DNA from: a virus
Length of the DNA: 22,148 nt
Strand: one strand, 5' to 3'
IMG/VR virus record: IMGVR_UViG_3300048837_000597
Location: 1 to 22,148 of that record
Position 1 is the first letter of the stretch. Each line of letters opens with the position of its first letter. Positions 4,008 through 19,134 of the stretch are shown here, in pieces. The notes beneath the pieces were generated by a model. It had not been told where the DNA came from and searched no databases. It worked only from the letters and a program-made list of their open reading frames with translations. The position numbers and the translations under genes are program-made.

Positions 4008-4369
4008 TTGTCAGTCCTTTCGTCGTTGGTGCCGTTTGCCGCACAACCCGTCGGTGCAGGGGACGCGCCGCAAGCGGCGCTCCCCTGACCTATGGCGTTC
4101 GACGGCTTTGCCGTGGTCAGTTCAAACACGAGGTCCGGCGTTCCAACCACTGCCACGCACCGGCGCCCTTCGTTGCCAAAGAGCGCGCCGGCCGTCTCAC
4201 GCATTGCAGCGGTCAGCGGGCCGTCAGCTTCCGCCACGATCAGGCTTCTCCCCTGTGCATCTTCCAGCTTGCGCAGCCCTTCCCACTCACCTGTTACGCG
4301 CATTCCGCGAATCTCGCGGCCGTTGGCGCGCACCGTGTAGGTGGGTTCCGGTATCAGTTCAATTTCCAT
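4004..4369 (-). CDS. cassette 8: hypothetical protein, 121 aa, with attC-encoded tail
   Basis: MEIELIPEPTYTVRANGREI begins a probable small beta-rich domain (to about residue 90; GRRCVAVVGTPDLVFELTTA). From PSNAIGQGSAACGASPAPTG onward the sequence is simply translated attC, ending at a TGA that overlaps the start of cassette 7. The start at 4367-4369 follows GGAGAGAG directly behind the next site's left core. No family recognised. The read-through tail (~32 residues) is Gly/Ala/Ser/Pro-rich and probably disordered. Confidence 0.65.
   Translation of the reverse strand: MEIELIPEPTYTVRANGREIRGMRVTGEWEGLRKLEDAQGRSLIVAEADGPLTAAMRETAGALFGNEGRRCVAVVGTPDLVFELTTAKPSNAIGQGSAACGASPAPTGCAANGTNDERTDK
4041..4103 (+). 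other. attC-like site 6
   Basis: Left core GCACAAC (4041-4047), spacer CCGTCG, arm GTGCAGGGG; apical GCGCCGCAAGCGGCGC; right arm CCCCTGAC, spacer, right core GTTCGAC (4097-4103). One extra base in the left arm. Bases 4045-4100 are identical to 7617-7672. Confidence 0.85.
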
Positions 4370-4790
4370 CGCTCTCTCCAGCCGTCGAACCCGTCGGTCG
4401 TGTGGGACCGGACGAAGCTGCGCTTCGCCGGCCCCACACCTCTGCGTTCGACGGCGTTTCGCGCAGCACACGCGCACGCTGCCAGTTTCGCTGCCGGCGC
4501 TGTGCATTCAGCGCTTTCGCGTACTCGTTCCAATACTTCACAGCTTCCACGATCCGGCCACGGTAAAAGTCCTGTGGCGGCATGTAGAGCAAACAACCTT
4601 CGTTTGTCAGTCCATCCTGCGGGCCGAACTTCTCGCCGTTGCTGCACATCAACACCTTTTCGATTGGACCAGCCTTGAAGTCCGTGCTGTACTGCCACAA
4701 CTGCGCATCCGCTCCGCACACAGGGCACGGCTCAACCTGCGTCCCTGCCGGAAGCTCGCCCGGCTTGTACAGTTCCTTACCTTCTTTCAT
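4359..4790 (-). CDS. cassette 9: Lar-like zinc-ribbon protein, 143 aa
   Basis: After MKEGKELYKPGELPAG comes EPCPVCGADAQLW (CxxC), a second metal-ligand region VLMCSNGEKFG with a later NEGCLLY, and a C-terminal IVEAVKYWNEYAKAL helix. CP.CG, further Cys, then a helix with A..YWN resembles the Lar restriction-alleviation family and related phage zinc ribbons; this is a resemblance, not a firm assignment. The ATG at 4788-4790 has GGAGAGCGAG upstream. The frame continues through the whole of site 7 and stops at 4359-4361, inside the start of the cassette 8 gene, so the two are coupled and the last ~30 residues are attC-encoded. Confidence 0.6.
   Translation of the reverse strand: MKEGKELYKPGELPAGTQVEPCPVCGADAQLWQYSTDFKAGPIEKVLMCSNGEKFGPQDGLTNEGCLLYMPPQDFYRGRIVEAVKYWNEYAKALNAQRRQRNWQRARVLRETPSNAEVWGRRSAASSGPTRPTGSTAGESDGN
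4384..4452 (+). other. attC-like site 7
   Basis: Left core GTCGAAC (4384-4390), spacer CCGTCG, arm GTCGTGTGGG; right arm CCCACACC, right core GTTCGAC (4446-4452). Apical GAAGCTGCGCTTC. Extra base in the left arm, + orientation. Confidence 0.8.
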
Positions 4791-7592: not shown

Positions 7593-7612
7593 CGTGTCCT
7601 CAATCTCCAGCC

Positions 7613-7675
7613 GTATAACCCGTCGGTGCAGGGGACGCGCCGCAAGCGGCGCTCCCCTGACCTATGGCGTTCACC
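7613..7675 (+). other. attC-like site 14 (right boundary of the array)
   Basis: Left core GTATAAC (7613-7619), arm GTGCAGGGG, right arm CCCCTGAC, right core GTTCACC (7669-7675). Bases 7617-7672 repeat 4045-4100 exactly. The stop codon of the next phage gene lies inside this core. Confidence 0.85.
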
Positions 7676-8400: not shown

Positions 8401-9068
8401 GCGAACACCATTCGCTTGTGACACTGCCTGACAGCTTCCACGTCGGCCATGCAGTAGGCAGCCACTTCCTTATGCCTGCCGGCCTGCCAGTATTCGGCCA
8501 CTTTGGAGCCGTCCAAGTCGCCCTTGCTCGATGGCACACCCAGGGCGCGGCAGAGCTTGTCCAGACTGATGCGCCGCTCTCGCTCGGGATTCCATGCCGT
8601 CATGGTATCGAACACCTTGCCGTCCCACGGTTTAGTGTTGAACGGGATGAATGCCGGCGGCCGGATGCCATTGACGACGCACCGTTGCCAGAGGAAGCGC
8701 AGATCGAACGACAGGATGTTGTGACCGATGAAGATGGCGGACTGGCGTTCGGTGTAGTCGCTGATTCTGGCGGCCTCAATCAGCCAGGCGAAGAAGGCGG
8801 TAATCGTCTCCGCCTCGTCGCCATAGCGAACATCGGCGGCGTCGTCATTGACGGCAAAGCCGATGCAGCAGATCCGCCCGAAGGTGCCGTCCAGTGCTGT
8901 CTTCTTGACCGCCTCCAGCAAGGCGCCGGGCTTCTCGTCACGTTCCCACGCCTCAATAGTCTCGGCCTTCTTGAGATTACCGGGCGGCCTGATGCCGGCG
9001 GCGATGTCGGCAATGATGGCCGGATCGTCGGAGGGGATCGTTTCGATATCCATAAAAATTAGACTCAT
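8397..9068 (-). CDS. DEDDy 3'-5' exonuclease (PolB-like exonuclease domain)
   Basis: 223 residues. FMDIETIP holds the first catalytic pair (Asp7, Glu9). FIGHNILSFDLRFL supplies Asp122, and YCMADVEAV (Tyr205, Asp209) is the ExoIII motif of the DEDDy subgroup. The architecture matches the predicted 3'-5' exonucleases related to the proofreading domain of family B polymerases that occur as stand-alone phage proteins. No polymerase domain is present. Its place next to an SSB-like gene suggests DNA replication or recombination work. The ATG at 9066-9068 follows AAGGTG and overlaps the stop of the 26-residue ORF upstream. Confidence 0.85.
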   Translation of the reverse strand: MSLIFMDIETIPSDDPAIIADIAAGIRPPGNLKKAETIEAWERDEKPGALLEAVKKTALDGTFGRICCIGFAVNDDAADVRYGDEAETITAFFAWLIEAARISDYTERQSAIFIGHNILSFDLRFLWQRCVVNGIRPPAFIPFNTKPWDGKVFDTMTAWNPERERRISLDKLCRALGVPSSKGDLDGSKVAEYWQAGRHKEVAAYCMADVEAVRQCHKRMVFA

Positions 9069-9145
9069 AATTTCACCTTATTATTGCTGTTTGCTTTTCT
9101 GTCGCGCTGGCTTGCGCATCCTTGAATAGAACAGATATTGGCCAT
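9065..9145 (-). CDS. 26-residue Cys-containing ORF bridging two genes
   Basis: MANICSIQGCASQRDRKANS then NNKVKL. Its ATG (9143-9145) shares bases with the TGA of the SSB-like gene (TGATG), and its TGA shares bases with the exonuclease ATG (ATGA). The exact fit at both ends, with a GAGGAG upstream, supports translation despite the length. The two Cys (CSIQGC) could bind metal only with a partner. Function unknown. Confidence 0.5.
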   Translation of the reverse strand: MANICSIQGCASQRDRKANSNNKVKL

Positions 9146-9885
9146 CAGAACGGCTCCTCTTCGCCCTTCCACGGCATGTCGTCGGGCATATCTTCGAATC
9201 CGCTCTTTCCGTTCTGCGGCGGAATCTCGGCCTCTGTTTCGCGTTGCACCTGTGCTGCTTCGGTACGCGGCTTCTTGAAGTAGCCTTCAAGATATGCCTG
9301 CAGTTCGGCGTCGAGCGCCTTTGCGATGTTGTTAGCCTCATCGCTGACCGGAGCGACGGCGAATACCGGAGAGATAAAGATAACGCTGCCCTTCTTGCCT
9401 TCGGTGTGGCCCTTGATGGCAATCGCCTGCTCGTAAATGTCTTTCCGGTTCGCCTTCTTGAAGTCCATCCAGGCGGACAGCGCAGCCCCCTTCAGTTGAA
9501 GGTTGCCGAGCTTGTATTCGTCACCATCCCTGTACGCAATGTAGAGGGATGCAACAAAATGCCCGCCGTGCGCTGCTGCGCGATCCCTTATTTGCGCGTA
9601 GAAACCAACCGCCAATTCACCGCCCTTGAATGACTTGACAACCAGCGTTTCGTTCCTGGTGTCGCGCACTTCGTTGGAGAAGATTCCGGATTCGCTGGCC
9701 TCGTGCCAGCCTTTGATGCAGGCCAGTTCGTCGAGTAGCAGGAAGGCGAATTTATCGCCCACCTTGACGTTTTCCTTGGCCTCCTTGTTGTAGTAGCGGA
9801 TGCTGTCGCCGCCTTTGGCACCGTGCCATTCGAACCAGCGCGTGCAAGGATTTGCAAGATTGTCAGTTGGATTGCTTCTGCTCAT
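9145..9885 (-). CDS. single-stranded DNA-binding-like phage protein
   Basis: 246 residues. A globular N-terminal ~190 residues with GGDSIRYYNKEAKENVKVGD, FAFLLLDELACIKGWHEA and GHTEGKKGSVIFISPVF is followed by a charged linker and an acidic C-terminal tail ending MPWKGEEEPF. A conserved acidic tip ending in PF is the hallmark of bacterial and phage SSBs that recruit partners. The core does not look like a classical OB-fold SSB to me, so SSB-like is inferred from the tail and from the neighbouring exonuclease. GAAAGGAAATAACC precedes the ATG at 9883-9885. Confidence 0.6.
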   Translation of the reverse strand: MSRSNPTDNLANPCTRWFEWHGAKGGDSIRYYNKEAKENVKVGDKFAFLLLDELACIKGWHEASESGIFSNEVRDTRNETLVVKSFKGGELAVGFYAQIRDRAAAHGGHFVASLYIAYRDGDEYKLGNLQLKGAALSAWMDFKKANRKDIYEQAIAIKGHTEGKKGSVIFISPVFAVAPVSDEANNIAKALDAELQAYLEGYFKKPRTEAAQVQRETEAEIPPQNGKSGFEDMPDDMPWKGEEEPF

Positions 9886-10036
9886 GGTTATTTCCTTTCG
9901 CGGAATCTTTCACCGCATGGTTGAGAAACTCCTGATACTCCCGCTGCGCCTGTTCGTCGCGCAGCCATTCCTCGCGCTCCTGCATCAGGAGAGCGTATTC
10001 GTGGGCTGCCTGGCCATCCTCACGCCAATCTGTCAT
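9863..10036 (-). CDS. first gene of the leftward early operon, 57 aa helical protein
   Basis: MTDWREDGQAAHEYALLMQE begins a highly charged, probably single-helix or coiled-coil protein (REEWLRDEQAQREYQEFLNH). The ATG at 10034-10036 lies only nine bases after the -10 box of the PL-like promoter, so its mRNA should be nearly leaderless. The ORF overlaps the start of the SSB-like gene by 23 bases. As the first product of the leftward operon it is in the position of early regulators, but no function can be read. Confidence 0.7.
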   Translation of the reverse strand: MTDWREDGQAAHEYALLMQEREEWLRDEQAQREYQEFLNHAVKDSAKGNNHEQKQSN

Positions 10037-10045
10037 CGTGAAAAG

Positions 10046-10074
10046 ACTTTACCCGGAGGTAAAACCAATGTCAA
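10046..10074 (-). promoter_or_regulatory. PL-like leftward early promoter
   Basis: On the minus strand: TTGACA (10069-10074), a 17-base spacer, TAAAGT (10046-10051). The first start codon is at 10036, so the predicted transcript start leaves almost no 5' leader. It should drive the operon from 10036 through the cassette array. Confidence 0.8.
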
Positions 10075-10088
10075 TACCCTCGGGTAAA
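10048..10088. promoter_or_regulatory. left operator pair
   Basis: A 16-base site TTTACCCGGAGGTAAA (10048-10063, TTTACC-N4-GGTAAA) covers the -10 box. A related site (10073-10088, AATACC-CTCG-GGTAAA) abuts the -35. Their centres are 25 bp apart, the same geometry as the right operators. Confidence 0.7.
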
Positions 10089-10097
10089 TTATTTTTG

Positions 10098-10122
10098 CAA
10101 AAAAATCCCGCCATGCGGCGGG
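10098..10122 (-). terminator. rho-independent terminator of the immunity operon
   Basis: On the minus strand, stem CCCGCC/GGCGGG with a four-base loop (10107-10122) is followed by a run of seven T. It ends the repressor-immunity-HNH transcript just before the PL-like promoter. Confidence 0.8.
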
Positions 10123-10133
10123 GGGCTTGTGGA

Positions 10134-10433
10134 TCAGCGGATGCCGCGACACACCCTTACATCTTTGCGCGTCTTGGCTTTGTGTTCGTTTTCAGAAAGC
10201 CATTGCATGTTTGCCGGATGATCCCGCCCCCCAGCACACAGCGGTTTGATGTGGTCAATATGAAAGGTGGGGCATGGGCCGCGTGGTTGGCCGGTAGAGG
10301 GGCAGGGGTTGGCACGCTTGAAGGATGCCTTGGCGGCGGCGCTGCGGGGTTGTTTGGCGTCCGTGCCAAGCGCAAACAACAGAATCGCCAACGAGACGAT
10401 TATGTAGGTAAATCGCTTCCACAATGTTTGCAT
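10134..10433 (-). CDS. HNH endonuclease with N-terminal signal/anchor
   Basis: 99 residues. MQTLWKRFTYIIVSLAILLF (basic start, hydrophobic core, Ala-rich end near 26) looks like a signal peptide. It is followed by a compact HNH fold: two Cys (44, 54), HIDHIKPLCAGG with the catalytic Asp60-His61, NMQWL (Asn75) and HKAKTRKD (His84, Lys85). Export of a nuclease to the periplasm would let it meet incoming DNA. Its place after a superinfection-immunity gene in the repressor operon suggests a lysogenic exclusion function, which is inferred. A longer upstream frame exists but would lie inside the neighbouring gene. The ribosome site is weak; coupling to the upstream gene (34-base overlap) is likely. 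Confidence 0.7.
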   Translation of the reverse strand: MQTLWKRFTYIIVSLAILLFALGTDAKQPRSAAAKASFKRANPCPSTGQPRGPCPTFHIDHIKPLCAGGRDHPANMQWLSENEHKAKTRKDVRVCRGIR

Positions 10434-10777
10434 TTGATGGCGGCAAACAAAACCTGTTCGGCACAATATGGACAGGGTTTCGTATCCGATTCCACCGCCT
10501 TCGGCGGTAAGGCTTCGGGTTTCTTGAATGCCCACGCTGCCGCAATCACCCATCCGATCAGAGACCACCCGAAGAAAAAATTAACTAGAGCAATCGAGGA
10601 CAAATTTACGTGTTTTCGTTTCCACGCTTCGTATGTGGGAAGCATATAGAGCGCCGGGAATGTGACGAAAAACGATAGTGCGACGATTTTCCCGAAGGCA
10701 TTCAGCTCCGGTTCTTGCCCCATTCCCCACCCATAGAGCGCCAGCAACGTAAGCGCTACAAGTCTAACGGCGAACAT
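10400..10777 (-). CDS. superinfection-immunity-type membrane protein with C-terminal zinc ribbon
   Basis: 125 residues. Three hydrophobic helices (about 4-20, 31-47, 61-84) include LYMLPTYEAWKRKHVNLSSI and NFFFGWSLIGWVIAAAWAF, the signature of the superinfection-immunity family related to T4 Imm-type proteins, which block DNA entry of related phages. The tail has a zinc ribbon, CPYCAEQV...CKHCG (Cys 102, 105, 116, 119), common in longer members. GGTGGGG precedes the ATG at 10775-10777, which is preferred over a GTG four codons upstream. It is transcribed with the repressor, as expected for a gene expressed from the prophage. Confidence 0.85.
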   Translation of the reverse strand: MFAVRLVALTLLALYGWGMGQEPELNAFGKIVALSFFVTFPALYMLPTYEAWKRKHVNLSSIALVNFFFGWSLIGWVIAAAWAFKKPEALPPKAVESDTKPCPYCAEQVLFAAIKCKHCGSDLPT

Positions 10778-10851
10778 ATCGCACCCCACCTAGTTGTCAT
10801 TAAACAATGTGGTCTGTATATTGCCATGCTGGCGGTATTTGTCCAGAAAAA

Positions 10852-11250
10852 TTATGCAGCCTTCCTTTTTTTCGCTTTCGTCAGCGGGTAGCGCTTCTTA
10901 ATCATCTGCGCGTACTCGATAATTAAATCCAGTCCTGGATCGGAAATTCCATCGGCTATATCGCATAAACGCTGAACATTGCTGCGGGCATGGCGCTTCA
11001 CCACGGTGGCCTTGACTTGCCCGCCCATGCTGAACCAGCCGAAATAGCCAGTGTTCTCTTCGATCTTTCTTACCGTGTCTTCTCCAATCCCCTTTTTACT
11101 TTTCTGGTTGTTGCTCAGGTAGCGCGACACAAGGGTCTCCGAAACGCCAGAAGCATCAGAGAAGCGTTTGTGCACGCCGTGGTAATGGGTGTCAATCAAC
11201 TCTCGCAGTCGCTTTTGCCTGAACGCGAGTCTTTCCGCCTTGATGTCCAT
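10852..11250 (-). CDS. phage repressor (CI-type, XRE HTH)
   Basis: 132 residues. An N-terminal basic helix (MDIKAERLAFRQKRLRELID) leads into a helix-turn-helix, DASGVSETLVSRYLSNNQKS, with a GIGEDTVRKIEENTG helix. The C-terminal part is short and helical, ending KKRYPLTKAKKRKAA, without the S24 protease domain of lambda-type repressors, so SOS self-cleavage is not expected from this chain. It lies between two matched operator pairs (10048-10088 and 11284-11324) and diverges from the Cro-like gene, which defines its role. A possible -10 (TAATAG, 11268-11273) lies upstream, but its -35 is poor. Confidence 0.8.
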   Translation of the reverse strand: MDIKAERLAFRQKRLRELIDTHYHGVHKRFSDASGVSETLVSRYLSNNQKSKKGIGEDTVRKIEENTGYFGWFSMGGQVKATVVKRHARSNVQRLCDIADGISDPGLDLIIEYAQMIKKRYPLTKAKKRKAA

Positions 11251-11283
11251 GCCTGGATTTTGGTGGCTATTACCAAAAAATAA

Positions 11284-11324
11284 ATAACCTAAGGGTATTG
11301 ACAGAGGCTTTACCCTACGGTAAA
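11284..11324. promoter_or_regulatory. right operator pair
   Basis: TTTACCCTACGGTAAA (11309-11324) overlaps the -10 of the rightward promoter, and ATAACCTAAGGGTATT (11284-11299) touches its -35 and lies toward the repressor gene. Half-sites and the 25-bp centre spacing match the left operators. Confidence 0.75.
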
Positions 11325-11326
11325 GT
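11298..11326 (+). promoter_or_regulatory. PR-like rightward early promoter
   Basis: TTGACA (11298-11303), 17-base spacer, TAAAGT (11321-11326), the same boxes as the leftward promoter. The Cro-like ATG begins at 11335, so the mRNA should be leaderless or nearly so. Confidence 0.8.
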
Positions 11327-11334
11327 GCCGCCGC

Positions 11335-11616
11335 ATGTACAAGTTGATCTCATTTCTGAACGGCAAGCCGAAAAGCGAACAGGAGTCTTTCGCGGCCCGC
11401 ATCGGCACGACTATTGGATATCTGCGCAAGGCCGCATCCGTCAATCAAAAACCCGCCACCGGCCTCTGTGTCGCGGCGGAAGGCGCGACAGATGGCGCTG
11501 TCACTTGCGAAGAATTGCGCCCGGATGTGGCGTGGGTGCGCATCAAGGACAAAAGCTGGCCGCATCCGCATGGTCGCCCGCTGGTCGATCACGCGCCGGC
11601 AAAAGAGGCCGCATGA
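11335..11616 (+). CDS. Cro/YdaS-like DNA-binding protein
   Basis: 93 residues. MYKLISFLNGKPKSEQESFA then ARIGTTIGYLRKAASVNQKP and GLCVAAEGATDGAVTCEELR-PDVAW is the compact YdaS/Cro helix-turn-helix layout. The tail is Pro/His-rich. As the first rightward gene opposite the repressor it should be the lytic-side regulator that binds the same operators. No Shine-Dalgarno is possible because the start lies eight bases from the -10 box. The stop overlaps the next ATG. Confidence 0.8.
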   Translation: MYKLISFLNGKPKSEQESFAARIGTTIGYLRKAASVNQKPATGLCVAAEGATDGAVTCEELRPDVAWVRIKDKSWPHPHGRPLVDHAPAKEAA

Positions 11617-11750
11617 AAAGTCTTCCCGTTTCGCAGAAGAAGAAATCAAAGCGCGATCTGCTGCGGGATGAAATCGCAAAATCACAGCAGCGTTACCGGC
11701 ATACCCCGGCAAGGGGGGCGGATGGCGCGGCAGGCAGGAGGAACAAGTAG
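11613..11750 (+). CDS. small basic protein, 45 aa
   Basis: MKSLPVSQKKKSKRDLLRDE then a short helix and a Gly/Arg-rich end. The ATG overlaps the TGA of the Cro-like gene (ATGA). Strongly basic, possibly nucleic-acid binding. No family recognised. Confidence 0.5.
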   Translation: MKSLPVSQKKKSKRDLLRDEIAKSQQRYRHTPARGADGAAGRRNK

Positions 11751-11859
11751 TCATGTCGAACATCACGAGCGCCGCGCCGAAGAGGCCGAAAAGGCGCTGG
11801 CGAAGGAAAGGGAGATCAACAAGGTGTTGAAGGATTTGCTGGCGGGGAAGGCGGCATGA
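11722..11859 (+). CDS. small coiled-coil protein, 45 aa
   Basis: From the ATG at 11722, MARQAGGTSSHVEHHERRAE continues as an uninterrupted amphipathic helix to AGKAA. It overlaps the end of the previous ORF by 29 bases, and its TGA overlaps the ATG of the next gene. A purine-rich GGGGGGCGG precedes the start. A 25-residue ORF in another frame (from 11753) is the weaker alternative. Confidence 0.5.
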   Translation: MARQAGGTSSHVEHHERRAEEAEKALAKEREINKVLKDLLAGKAA

Positions 11860-12158
11860 ACCAGCTTGCCATCGACTTCGACGCCATCCCGCACGCCCGG
11901 CGCAGCGATCCGGAAACTTCCAAGGAAGCCGCCCGCCGGGTGCGTGAGTTCGCCCGCGGGCAATGCGCCGCCATCCTGGCCGTGCTGCAGAAACGGGGGC
12001 CGCTCGGCGCGGAACAGATCGCCGCCTATCTCAAGATTGACGCCTACGCGGCAAGGAAGCGGCTGGCAGACCTGGAGCACGCAGGCATGGCCAAACCCTT
12101 GCACATGCAGCGCGTCACCGCCAGCGGCCGGCATGAGCGGATATGGGAGGCGTGGTGA
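11856..12158 (+). CDS. winged-helix-type protein, 100 aa
   Basis: MNQLAIDFDAIPHARRSDPE, then a helical region (RGQCAAILAVLQKRGPLGAE, QIAAYLKIDAYAARKRLADL) and a strand pair ending ERIWEAW. The helix, recognition helix and wing pattern resembles the small winged-helix proteins often placed before DUF1376 replication genes in phages. DNA binding is inferred. The stop TGA (12156-12158) overlaps the GTG start of the next gene. Confidence 0.7.
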   Translation: MNQLAIDFDAIPHARRSDPETSKEAARRVREFARGQCAAILAVLQKRGPLGAEQIAAYLKIDAYAARKRLADLEHAGMAKPLHMQRVTASGRHERIWEAW

Positions 12159-12988
12159 ATTACTACCCGCACCATATAGGCGACTACCTCACCGCGACGA
12201 CGCACTTGACGCTGCTCGAGCACGGCGTGTACCGCCGCCTGATTGATGTCTATTACATCCGTGAAGCGCCTTTGCCGGCAGACAAAAACCAAGTCTACCG
12301 GCTCGTTGGCGCCCGCACGAAGGAAGAAAAAGAAGCAGTTGATTCAATACTTTCCGAGTTCTTCCAAGTAACTGAAGAGGGATGGGCGCAAGATCGGTGC
12401 GATTATGAAATCGGTTTGTGCAACAAGAACCGGACCAATGGAAAAAAAGGGGGGAGACCTTCCAAAACCAAGAACCCAGACAAAACCCAAGCGGAACCCA
12501 GACAAAACCCAAACGGAACCCAACCCGAAAGCCCCCCATCACCCCATTACCCCATCACCCCAACAACTACTACGGCCTCTGCCGAGGCCGAGCCGGAATT
12601 CGAGGAAGCCTGGCGGCTTTTCCCGAAGCGCGCCGGAGGCAACCCAAAGGGCAGGGCATTGAAAGCCTGGCGGGCAAGGCGGAAGGAGGGGGCAACCGCC
12701 GCCGAGATTCAAGAAGGGGTGGCGCGCTATGCCGCCTTTGTCCGCGCCACCGGGCGGGAGCACACCGAGTTCGTCATGCAGTCCGCTACTTTTTTCGGGC
12801 CGGATCGGCAGTTTGCGGAGCCGTGGAACCCGCCGCAGGAAAAGCAGCGCCCCGCCGACTGGTGGGCCTCCGACGCCGCCACCGAAGCCAAAGGCAAGGA
12901 ACTTGGCCTGACGCCCAGGGCTGGTGAAGGCTGGCCGCAGTTCAAGGATCGCATTCGCGCCAAGCTGGGCGAAAGGATGGCCGCATGA
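12155..12988 (+). CDS. DUF1376-family phage replication protein
   Basis: 277 residues. The N-terminal ~95 residues (NYYPHHIGDYLTATTHLTLL, EHGVYRRLIDVYYIREAPLP, then DRCDYEIGLCNKN) are a DUF1376 domain, found in phage proteins in the replication-initiator position. A low-complexity Lys/Pro/Asn/Gln linker follows (about 105-150), then a helical C-terminal domain with EEAWRLFPKRAGGNPKGRAL and FVMQSATFFG, as in other phage initiators. The start GTG at 12155 follows GGGAGG and overlaps the upstream stop. The linker is encoded by tandem 22-bp repeats that may be the origin, the arrangement known from lambda O. Confidence 0.8.
   Translation: MNYYPHHIGDYLTATTHLTLLEHGVYRRLIDVYYIREAPLPADKNQVYRLVGARTKEEKEAVDSILSEFFQVTEEGWAQDRCDYEIGLCNKNRTNGKKGGRPSKTKNPDKTQAEPRQNPNGTQPESPPSPHYPITPTTTTASAEAEPEFEEAWRLFPKRAGGNPKGRALKAWRARRKEGATAAEIQEGVARYAAFVRATGREHTEFVMQSATFFGPDRQFAEPWNPPQEKQRPADWWASDAATEAKGKELGLTPRAGEGWPQFKDRIRAKLGERMAA
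12473..12522 (+). repeat. tandem 22-bp iterons inside the replication gene (candidate origin)
   Basis: 12473-12494 and 12495-12516 are copies of one 22-bp unit (AACCCAGACAAAACCC then AARCGG) with one mismatch, followed by the start of a third. An ACCCCATY motif repeats nearby (about 12537-12562). Iterons in the middle of an initiator gene recall the lambda origin in O. Confidence 0.55.
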
Positions 12989-13729: not shown

Positions 13730-14156
13730 AACCATCGTCATCCAGTCCGCCGGGCACGCCGCCCACGCCAGCCAGATCATCAACCTCAACTGGCAGGCCA
13801 TGCACGCGGCTGGGCATCCGATGGCCGTCTCGATTCACGAATACAAGTCCATCCGCAGCATCGAACAACAATCCTTGATGTGGGTGCGCCTGGGCGAGAT
13901 TGCCGAGCAGGCGTGGGTGAATGGCCGGCAATACGCCGCCGAGACGTGGCACGAACATTTCAAGCGCGAATACCTGCCGGACGAGGCAGGCCCAACGAAG
14001 CGGTGCCGGAAGGGCTACAAGAAGTGGGAGTACATGCCAAATGGCGAACGGGTGCTGGTGGGCAGCACAACCATGCTGACGGTGTTCGGCATGAGCGAAT
14101 ACATGACGCAGATCGAAACGTATGCGGCGACGGAATTGGGGGTGATGTTTAAATGA
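13722..14156 (+). CDS. ninB: NinB-family recombination protein
   Basis: 144 residues. MDKTIVIQSAGHAAHASQII, KSIRSIEQQSLMWVRLGEIA, then EHFKREYLPDEAGPTKRCRK and STTMLTVFGMSEYMTQIETY match the lambda NinB (Orf) pattern, including the LMWV.LGEIA helix and the final S.MT..IE.Y. NinB binds SSB and single-stranded DNA to help load recombinase. The ATG at 13722 is used; a TTG one codon earlier has no support. It overlaps rusA by eight bases. Confidence 0.9.
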   Translation: MDKTIVIQSAGHAAHASQIINLNWQAMHAAGHPMAVSIHEYKSIRSIEQQSLMWVRLGEIAEQAWVNGRQYAAETWHEHFKREYLPDEAGPTKRCRKGYKKWEYMPNGERVLVGSTTMLTVFGMSEYMTQIETYAATELGVMFK

Positions 14157-14413
14157 CCCAAGCCCACCTCTCCCGCCTCGCCGCCATGCCCTGCGCCTTG
14201 TGCGGCATGCAGCCTGTCGAAGTGCATCACCTGCTGGAGGGGCGCACGAAGGGGCGGAAGTCCGGCCATTACACCGCCATCCCACTGTGCCCGGACTGTC
14301 ACCGGGGCAGCGGCAACGGTATCCACGGCCAGCGCCGGTTGTGGAATGTGCTGAAGAAGACCGAGCTTGAGCTGCTCGGGGAAACCATCGAGCGAATTCT
14401 GTATGGCCCTTGA
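14153..14413 (+). CDS. Ref-like HNH recombination nuclease
   Basis: 86 residues. MPCALCGMQPVEVHHLLEG (Cys14, Cys17, His25-His26), HYTAIPLCPDCHRGSGNGIHG (Cys46, Cys49, His50, His58) and a C-terminal helix form the zinc-stabilised HNH-like core of the Ref/recombination-enhancement family, whose P1 member cuts at RecA-bound displacement loops. It follows rusA and ninB by ATGA coupling, supporting a recombination role. Shorter than P1 Ref, which has an extra N-terminal region. Confidence 0.8.
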   Translation: MTQAHLSRLAAMPCALCGMQPVEVHHLLEGRTKGRKSGHYTAIPLCPDCHRGSGNGIHGQRRLWNVLKKTELELLGETIERILYGP

Positions 14414-17879: not shown

Positions 17880-18191
17880 ATGAGGATGCTCAAGCCATCG
17901 AGGCTCGCAACACCCGGCCGCAAGCTGGCGATCCTGGAGACAGTGCCAGGTGCCACACCACGGCAGCGCGGCCGGCCCTGGGCACGGCGCCGGGCCGCAT
18001 GGTTGCGGGAGCATCCGCTCTGCGCTCACTGCCTGCAGGCCGGCATCATCCGTCCGGCGCAGGAGGTCGACCACATCACACCGCTCTGTGAAGGCGGGCG
18101 TGACGACGAGAGCAACTTCCAGAGCCTCTGCGTCGAGTGCCATCAGGTCAAGACGGCGAACGAGGCAAAGGGTAGAGCGAGAGGATATTAG
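17880..18191 (+). CDS. HNH endonuclease of the packaging module
   Basis: 103 residues. A basic N-terminus, then LREHPLCAHCLQAG (Cys48, Cys51), EVDHITPLCEGG (Asp64-His65) and NFQSLCVECHQVKT (Asn79, Cys84, Cys87, His88): a complete zinc-supported HNH. Small HNH proteins beside terminase genes (HK97 gp74 type) are required for cos cleavage in several phages, and this is the likely job here. The ATG at 17880 has no strong ribosome site. Confidence 0.85.
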   Translation: MRMLKPSRLATPGRKLAILETVPGATPRQRGRPWARRRAAWLREHPLCAHCLQAGIIRPAQEVDHITPLCEGGRDDESNFQSLCVECHQVKTANEAKGRARGY

Positions 18192-18306: not shown

Positions 18307-19134
18307 GTGACTGAGGCGAATTATAAGCGCTTCCGGTGCAGCCATTGCGCCGTTGAGTTTGAGGCAATCAAAGAAAAGCGGTATTGCACCAAGAAGTGCA
18401 ACAGGGCCGCAATAAGCAAGAACAAGTCGAGCGTATCAAGGGCTGAGTATTTGGCTAAGGTGCGCGAGCATTCGGCCTGCAAGTTCACTTGCGAGCATTG
18501 CGGCAAGGAAGCGCATCGCAAACTGAGCGGCACAAACAAGAAGAAGGGGATCGTTAATCGGTTCTGTTCGATGCAATGCAAGAAGGATGCTGCTGCAGCA
18601 GAGCGGCCAGCGCCTTATTCGCCATGTCACGCCGGGTATTGCGGTACATGCGGCAAGCCATTCGTATCTAAGCGCAAGAAAGTCTATTGCAGCGAGCAAT
18701 GTAGGCCGGCCGCTCAATACGTGAGCATCGCGCCAGAAGCTAGGCTTTGCAAGTGCTGCGGTAATGAATATAAGCCCGCATTTACTGGCGGGAGGCCAAA
18801 TGAGTATTGCAGCCAAACCTGCTTTGACTTAGTTAGTGCGGCAATAAGAAGGGCTGCCAAAGCAAAGCGCGAGGCAAAGCTGAAGGGCGCGACTATTGAG
18901 AACGTTGACCCGTTTAAGGTATTCGACAGGGATAAGTGGCGATGCCAGCTATGCGGAGTAAAGACTCCAAAGAGTAAGCGCGGAACGTATGACGATGATG
19001 CGCCAGAGCTGGATCACATCATTCCCCTGGCTAAAGGCGGCGAGCACTCGTATTGCAATACGCAGTGCTCATGCCGCAAGTGCAATGGATTGAAGTCTGA
19101 CAAGCCCATGGGGCAGATGCTCCTAGTTGGATGA
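18307..19134 (+). CDS. HNH endonuclease with four N-terminal zinc fingers
   Basis: 275 residues. Four successive CxxC...CxxxC fingers are seen: Cys 11/14/27/31, 62/65/87/91, 112/115/128/132 and 148/151/168/172. A basic helix (RRAAKAKREAKLKG) and a C-terminal HNH domain follow: FDRDKWRCQLCG (Cys213, Cys216), ELDHIIPLAKGG (Asp236-His237) and CSCRKCNGLKSD. Repeated fingers probably give DNA recognition, as in phage homing endonucleases. The base composition is visibly more AT-rich than the flanks and it separates the packaging HNH from TerS, so I infer an inserted free-standing homing nuclease. Start GTG at 18307 after GAGAGG. Confidence 0.8.
   Translation: MTEANYKRFRCSHCAVEFEAIKEKRYCTKKCNRAAISKNKSSVSRAEYLAKVREHSACKFTCEHCGKEAHRKLSGTNKKKGIVNRFCSMQCKKDAAAAERPAPYSPCHAGYCGTCGKPFVSKRKKVYCSEQCRPAAQYVSIAPEARLCKCCGNEYKPAFTGGRPNEYCSQTCFDLVSAAIRRAAKAKREAKLKGATIENVDPFKVFDRDKWRCQLCGVKTPKSKRGTYDDDAPELDHIIPLAKGGEHSYCNTQCSCRKCNGLKSDKPMGQMLLVG

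Follow-up and report, generated by a model that had tools for sequence, protein, structure and literature searches.

The rexA and rexB genes of phage lambda lie between the operators OL and OR, phage T4 depends on the periplasmic endonuclease I of its host to destroy excluded DNA, and the nucleases Dns and IdeA carry a domain of the endonuclease I family. PMC12894663 places rexAB just downstream of CI. T4 Imm resides in the plasma membrane and keeps the genome of a secondary phage from being translocated (PMC6832632, PMC11436027). Trapping of DNA in the periplasm is one of the exclusion mechanisms covered by a 2024 review, whose text holds no word beginning with "nuclease" (PMC11436027). Also, a working hypothesis for lysis inhibition includes periplasmic DNA (PMC6832632), and phage DNA can be shielded from periplasmic nucleases, as in the example of T5 (PMC10975011). 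Stalling of DNA at the membrane by exclusion proteins is a known mechanism; among the matches listed from the open-licence PMC literature, neither a prophage-made periplasmic nuclease that finishes such DNA nor an exported HNH protein in a repressor operon is described.

The window, i.e. the whole stretch of DNA analyzed here, is the complete IMG/VR record IMGVR_UViG_3300048837_000597 (22,148 bases, linear). Behind a CI-type repressor gene, it encodes an Imm-family membrane protein and a small HNH nuclease with a predicted signal peptide (Table 1). We propose, at slightly under an even chance, that these genes form a lysogen-made exclusion cassette in the rexAB position, in which Imm would stall incoming phage DNA and the periplasmic HNH enzyme would cut it.

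Like cI-rexA-rexB of lambda and RexABpp of Pseudomonas putida, the locus combines genes placed after the repressor, one membrane protein and an exclusion function, here a proposed one (PMC12894663). The Rex system differs in having no exported nuclease and in that RexB damages the membrane; no Rex family appeared among the Pfam, PHROG, NCBIfam and PADLOC matches of Imm or HNH at E ≤ 0.1, and kinship with RexA or RexB was not found there. The window Imm has the same Pfam domain as T4 Imm (PF14373). Outside the 42 aa of that domain it differs from T4 Imm in additional N-terminal helices and a zinc ribbon at the C-terminus, and also in the placement of its gene next to a nuclease gene in a lysogeny operon. 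Dns of the Campylobacter jejuni element CJIE1 and IdeA of a Vibrio cholerae ICE are nucleases of integrated elements predicted to be extracytoplasmic, as the window HNH protein may be (PMC4774983); unlike them, the window HNH gene stands in a repressor operon with a membrane partner. As in SNIPE, a nuclease would act at phage genome injection, the link to the tape-measure protein being SNIPE's (PMC13190303, PMC12904381). Unlike SNIPE, a single cytoplasm-facing membrane protein with DUF4041 and GIY-YIG, the nuclease here is a separate HNH protein, predicted to be exported, and the Pfam scan detected neither DUF4041 nor GIY-YIG in Imm or HNH. We read the cassette as probable rex-position exclusion genes, a known kind, with a recurrent arrangement around a predicted exported nuclease as its new feature.

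Organization of the Immunity Operon

Table 1. Features of the immunity region (positions in the window).
Feature	Position	Strand	Basis or remark
CI-type HTH repressor gene	10852..11250	-	132 aa; PHROG transcriptional repressor, weak (6.6e-4)
Imm-family membrane protein gene	10400..10777	-	125 aa; Pfam and PHROG matches
Exported (predicted) HNH nuclease gene	10134..10433	-	99 aa; Pfam HNH; AlphaFold2 mean pLDDT 92.7
HNH protein, Sec signal peptide (predicted)	10356..10433	-	residues 1-26
Catalytic Asp60-His61 codons of the HNH gene	10251..10256	-	family alignment
Imm_superinfect (PF14373) domain of Imm	10526..10651	-	residues 43-84, Pfam
C-terminal zinc ribbon of Imm	10409..10483	-	residues 99-123; Zn_ribbon_3 below cut-off; cysteine pairs
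YdaS/Cro-like gene, divergent	11335..11616	+	Pfam, PHROG
Immunity-operon terminator	10107..10122	-	6-bp GC stem, then A and seven T
Putative OL/PL, inverted copy of OR/PR	10046..10096	-	TTGACA-17-TAAAGT promoter with operators
Putative OR/PR	11276..11326	+	TTGACA-17-TAAAGT promoter with operators

The large terminase of the window matched 165 phage records, with 64% identity at best, and we read the gene order as lambdoid-phage-like. The window contains no tRNA, and an Rfam scan of it gave no match at gathering scores. Both reading frames of the preliminary description are genuine and correctly located, the HNH gene starting within the 3′ end of imm so that the two have 34 nt in common. The operon is also closed by a terminator, as had been claimed; this call rests on form and position, because the four terminator-like sites in 9000–12200 are close to the 4.2 expected and the folding z-score of this one is only −1.7. 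The gap between the repressor gene and imm holds no credible promoter, its lone minus-strand consensus match (10800–10773) ending within imm. Repressor, imm and HNH genes are probably co-transcribed, and their shared position implies expression in lysogens.

The palindrome TTTACCNNNNGGTAAA occurs in the whole window in two perfect copies (10048–10063 and 11309–11324), and with up to two mismatches there are five matches against 0.29 expected. Each perfect site lies within a 51-nt element, the two elements being 78% identical in inverted orientation and sharing one promoter-like sequence. They look like OL/PL and OR/PR, with operators deduced from the repeats. The repressor, imm and HNH genes are all located between the two operator-promoter copies, with the terminator just before PL; given operators read from repeats, this is the rexAB-type position, after cI and between OL and OR. 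Matching inverted repeats placed before the repressor and after the HNH gene were detected in 12 of the 76 testable CI loci among the relatives described below (p < 0.02, about 1.5 expected), the window being among the three strongest by z; bracketing operators were undetectable in the other 64. The pair at 10046–10096 and 11276–11326 had been absent from the preliminary description.

Other parts of the window also present some particular features. Repeats of about 60 nt at 4038–4100 and 7610–7672, 97% identical, lie among small minus-strand ORFs, with weaker copies near 4384, 4812, 5811 and 6665. They resemble integron attC sites, and the phage may carry a gene-cassette array. Further HNH-type genes are found at 17886–18191, 14153–14413 (a weak match) and 18307–19134 (by eye only).

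The HNH Protein and Its Family

The HNH protein reached 21.8 bits against Pfam HNH, barely above the cut-off of 21.4; HNH and HNH_5 were its only Pfam matches, with no endonuclease I domain. We uphold the assignment despite this marginal score because of the numerous relatives and the predicted fold, and the Asp-His/Asn motif together with the Pfam score places the protein in the HNH superfamily. In the alignment of 208 HNH proteins, the conserved positions are D60 (204), H61 (205), N75 (208) and K87 (205). The numbering Asp60/His61 proposed earlier was correct; the Asp-His pair stands in 204 rows, the exceptions being two gaps, one GY and one GH. A copy located on a Diaphorobacter IncP plasmid (L011, 4893–5195) has Gly-Tyr where the catalytic Asp-His is expected.

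The AlphaFold2 model (66 sequences) has a mean pLDDT of 92.7 and a pTM of 0.70, with a separate N-terminal helix (3–21), a helix at 32–41, strands at 57–61 and 76–80 and a helix at 81–98. The model shows the HNH beta-beta-alpha fold, and HNH structures head the VIA-align rows. Residues 28–97 were aligned on the Cas8-HNH domain of 8w1p (Z 7.2, rmsd 1.8 Å, 64 residues), a Z below 8 being not decisive by itself, and a sequence profile match to Cas8-HNH (1.9e-4) agrees with this alignment. The top 14 rows were all Cas8-HNH, followed by the HNH of ZRANB3, McrA and a Geobacter HNH nickase at Z 4.7–4.8, and colicin-type DNases reached Z 3–4. Cas8-HNH of the type I-F_HNH Cascade, the closest solved fold for the mature domain, is a guided cytoplasmic effector, unlike the window protein, and the two have only the nuclease domain in common. 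Foldseek against the PDB gave nothing at E ≤ 0.001, and PADLOC gave a weak mREase_IV match only (1.5e-3) and no named system. From its sequence and model, the protein is a putative DNase.

The family was sampled by several searches. A single HNH query found 6 viral relatives. Alignment searches found the family in at least 307 viral contigs, then 169 relatives in a second search, and 181 relatives in GTDB genomes, with overlap between the sets and the best 80 being kept each time. The window HNH alone (E ≤ 1e-3) matched a single phage record out of 50,697 and two plasmid records out of 72,556; the family is thus rare among deposited phages. After gene calling, the 270 loci were grouped at 90% identity into 227 clusters, of which 133 are viral, 71 come from genomes, 4 are other and 19 are controls, the control family being the second window HNH (17886–18191) and its relatives, treated in the same way. 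These loci are the best-scoring 80 of each scan and not a random sample. The clusters are not independent either: the 208 non-control ones collapse to 114 at 70% identity (43 with a CI member) and to 18 under 60% single linkage (10 with a CI member). Loci L140 and L152 were dropped at gene calling and L156 for lack of a profile match, and L001 and L009 were unused.

The family is present in many Proteobacteria and Acidobacteria. Among the 80 GTDB loci kept, 79 are diderm by record title and the remaining one is a "Mycobacterium" MAG contig. With up to 25 first-look candidates scored per genome, the family was found in 1 of 197 Actinomycetota genomes, which is the query MAG, and in 6 of 200 Burkholderiales genomes, including the query genome and two with internal stops. 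A spread of the family through diderms only is suggested by these genome labels. In L006 and L007 (4887–5210), an HNH gene of the predicted exported kind follows lysis-like genes recognized by eye and faces an integrase-like gene, and is not behind a repressor.

The signal peptide claimed in the preliminary description is predicted at residues 1–26, and it appears to be family-wide. Of the viral clusters, 125 of 133 have a signal-like N-terminus, as do 65 of 71 genome clusters (190 of 204 for the two together) and 3 of 4 other ones, against none of the 19 control clusters. Gene calling relied on a home-made codon model, signal and membrane predictions used hydropathy rules and not SignalP, and starts of the target nucleases were picked with a bias to hydrophobic N-termini, the control HNH genes being handled identically. 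Alanine is the most frequent residue at aligned columns 24 (94 of 208) and 26 (110 of 208), i.e. −3 and −1 before the mature start, where the window protein has T24 and A26. Export is thus predicted from the sequence and from its conservation in the family.

The cysteines may form two disulfides. A Cys at or next to 66 accompanies a Cys near 95 in 184 of the 208 proteins, whereas 23 lack both and 1 has just one of them; C44 and C54 are both present in 203. The joint loss of a pair is as disulfides predict, and loss of one pair alone argues against a four-cysteine zinc site.

Repressor Linkage and Changing Partners

A repressor gene was found upstream on the same strand, with 0–3 genes between, in 66 of the 133 viral HNH clusters. 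For the genome clusters, with 0–4 genes between, the figure was 13 of 71, and for the control clusters 0 of 19; 10 viral, 10 genome and 3 control clusters run off the contig. In 60 of these 66 viral clusters, the gene beyond the repressor lies on the opposite strand, as cro would. Half of the viral and most of the genome clusters have no repressor detected upstream; detection was by iterated phmmer, and some repressors will be missed. The HNH gene comes straight after the repressor in 8 viral and 2 genome clusters.

Upstream neighbours (at most 250 aa, gap below 300) numbered 144 after 8 repressors had been set aside. Among these partners, 95 are predicted membrane or exported proteins (95 of 152 with the repressors), compared with 326 of 1975 distant genes and 2 of 14 control neighbours. 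A membrane segment together with two CxxC motifs was found in 20 of the 144 partners vs 1 of 1,975 distant genes. Linked BLAST matches sort these 20 proteins into 5 groups (11, 6, 1, 1 and 1 members), the largest of which comprises Imm and other zinc-ribbon membrane proteins. Overlap with the HNH gene is frequent, concerning 89 of the 175 upstream genes on the same strand.

Several other partners deserve mention. In the 6-member group (L067, L148, L207, L229, L232, L239), the CxxC pairs flank one hydrophobic helix, and the L232 protein has weak zf-LITAF-like and Pmp3 Pfam matches below cut-off. The partners in L026, L044, L189 and L200 belong to one exported or membrane family, and two of the 140 partners scanned matched Rap1a immunity proteins (PF18602).

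The 144 partners represent about 110 families. The scan covered 140 partners, namely 139 neighbours and the window Imm, after 28 of 167 had been excluded by hand (repressors, long proteins and a few others); only 3 of these 140 are Imm. A strict two-gene Imm-HNH module was therefore rejected as a general rule. As judged from these sequences, the slot recurs and the partner varies.

Imm, Its Relatives and a Second Exported Nuclease

The Imm protein scored 53.5 bits against Pfam Imm_superinfect (E 2.2e-14, cut-off 27.9 bits), and its match to PHROG 1039, "immunity to superinfection", had an E of 1.5e-15. Its zinc ribbon, unmentioned in the preliminary description, scored 23.2 bits against Zn_ribbon_3, under the cut-off of 27, and the cysteine pairs are nearly invariant among Imm relatives. 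Foldseek with the Imm model against BFVD gave nothing at E ≤ 0.001, the top three matches being still named superinfection immunity proteins, and PADLOC gave a weak PDC-S64 match only (0.034) and no named system.

A search of viral contigs with P0002 alone gave zero relatives; the alignment query did yield them, and the 80 loci kept form 53 clusters. A repressor is ahead of Imm in 14 of the 53, and in 11 a gene of at least 780 aa, which we took as the tape-measure gene, comes first or second after Imm; 28 are in neither context. For example, Pseudomonas phage YMC11/02/R656 has Imm, then a 1006-aa gene, then minor tail protein M. Imm directly upstream of a gene of about 900–1100 aa, taken as tape measure, was also seen in L283–L286, L288, L290–L293, L295, L321, L323, L325–L328 and L009, among others. 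This adjacency hints at an action of Imm on the injection machinery.

Most Imm genes were found with no exported nuclease alongside. A predicted exported HNH directly follows Imm in 3 distinct loci (the window, L089/L315 and L133/L320), and in 2 others the following protein is staphylococcal-nuclease-like (SNase) and also predicted to be exported: L311 (4.6e-23, 4-nt overlap) and L316 (1.7e-14, no gap). When both SNases served as queries, 53 loci were retrieved (L361–L413), 51 of them with a signal-like start, the starts having been picked with the same hydrophobic bias and with no control family of their own. Of the 47 SNase clusters, 18 have a repressor upstream of the predicted exported SNase, in temperate phages, and another 3 run off the contig; 18 of the 22 genes between repressor and SNase encode membrane or exported proteins. 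HNH genes of the window type were absent from the genes called in the SNase loci, and two HNH loci carry an SNase elsewhere. That two unrelated nucleases of predicted export share an operon position is the best clue to the purpose of the slot.

Alternative Explanations

The main rival, which we consider unlikely, is that the exported HNH guards the prophage from loss by natural transformation, degrading DNA in the periplasm, with Imm as an independent neighbour. Secreted DNases of several mobile elements, such as those of Campylobacter CJIE elements and of a V. cholerae ICE, lower transformation 10- to 1000-fold (PMC4774983, PMC11472951). The HNH family also occurs in many Proteobacteria and Acidobacteria and on two plasmids, one copy there lacking Asp-His, and it depends on no particular partner. 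Taken alone, transformation leaves the excess of membrane or exported partners unexplained, as well as Imm beside two unrelated exported nucleases and tape-measure-sized genes. The company kept by Imm, i.e. nucleases of two kinds and genes of tape-measure size, makes us favour the phage exclusion reading for this locus.

Less probable again is that HNH alone excludes phages whose DNA is exposed to the periplasm, the upstream gene serving exclusion on its own and being replaceable, at a hot spot within the immunity operon. The different partner families between phages and the 10 clusters with no gene between repressor and HNH fit with this; the overlap in 89 of 175 cases and the bias to membrane and zinc-ribbon partners suggest coupling instead. 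A secreted DNase made by lysogens for nutrition, biofilm or control of extracellular DNA, with no role in DNA entry, would suit a small protein of predicted export, expressed in lysogens by its position and found in many environmental hosts, but its co-location with Imm and membrane proteins makes it very improbable. Finally, an ordinary cytoplasmic phage HNH for packaging or homing, with an accidentally hydrophobic N-terminus, is the least credible reading: phage HNH genes are common and the window has a second one upstream of the terminase (17886–18191), but the signal-like N-terminus of 190 of 204 clusters against 0 of 19 in that second family and the position in the immunity operon disfavour it.

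A Possible Role in Superinfection Exclusion

According to the exclusion reading, the repressor transcript would also yield the inner-membrane protein Imm and the small HNH nuclease. The latter would be exported by Sec, mature in the periplasm with two disulfides and cleave double-stranded DNA there. Imm would hinder the incoming phage genome at the inner membrane in the manner of T4 Imm, and DNA stalled in the periplasm or leaking into it would be cut by the HNH enzyme, the host chromosome being safe because it is cytoplasmic. A periplasmic nuclease would in this way turn a stall into destruction with no risk for the chromosome. Stalling by Imm, its joint action with HNH and a superinfection phenotype are what we infer for this locus.

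The preliminary description had proposed that the two proteins jointly block and cut incoming phage DNA in the periplasm of lysogens. This proposal is partly supported. Its components stand, namely a membrane protein of the Imm family, a nuclease of predicted export whose active site is intact, and a repressor-linked position; a conserved Imm-HNH pair does not. Since the partners span about 110 families and some relatives follow the repressor with no partner, the joint working is not supported in the form proposed, and we restrict it to an inference for this locus. The rarity of the pair and the diversity of partners also mean that HNH need not act with Imm. Zinc ribbons are usually cytoplasmic, and the ribbon of Imm and the nuclease may therefore never meet. 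The shielding of phage DNA known from T5, the prophage DNases that block transformation, the many clusters with no repressor detected upstream and the Imm genes with no nuclease alongside also speak against the exclusion reading.

Beyond this locus, with its large and varied set of partners, the phage exclusion reading is less certain. It is possible, though rather doubtful, that temperate phages of diderm hosts reserve a place in the immunity operon for a periplasmic exclusion device of two parts: a membrane or exported protein, exchangeable, that would recognize or stall the entering DNA, and behind it an exported nuclease that would destroy this DNA, HNH and SNase being interchangeable. If the exclusion reading is true, compartment alone would separate self from foreign DNA, with neither modification nor guide. 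With members of the HNH family in 307 or more viral contigs, such a defence could be widespread among uncultivated phages, and the family could also supply small secreted nucleases.
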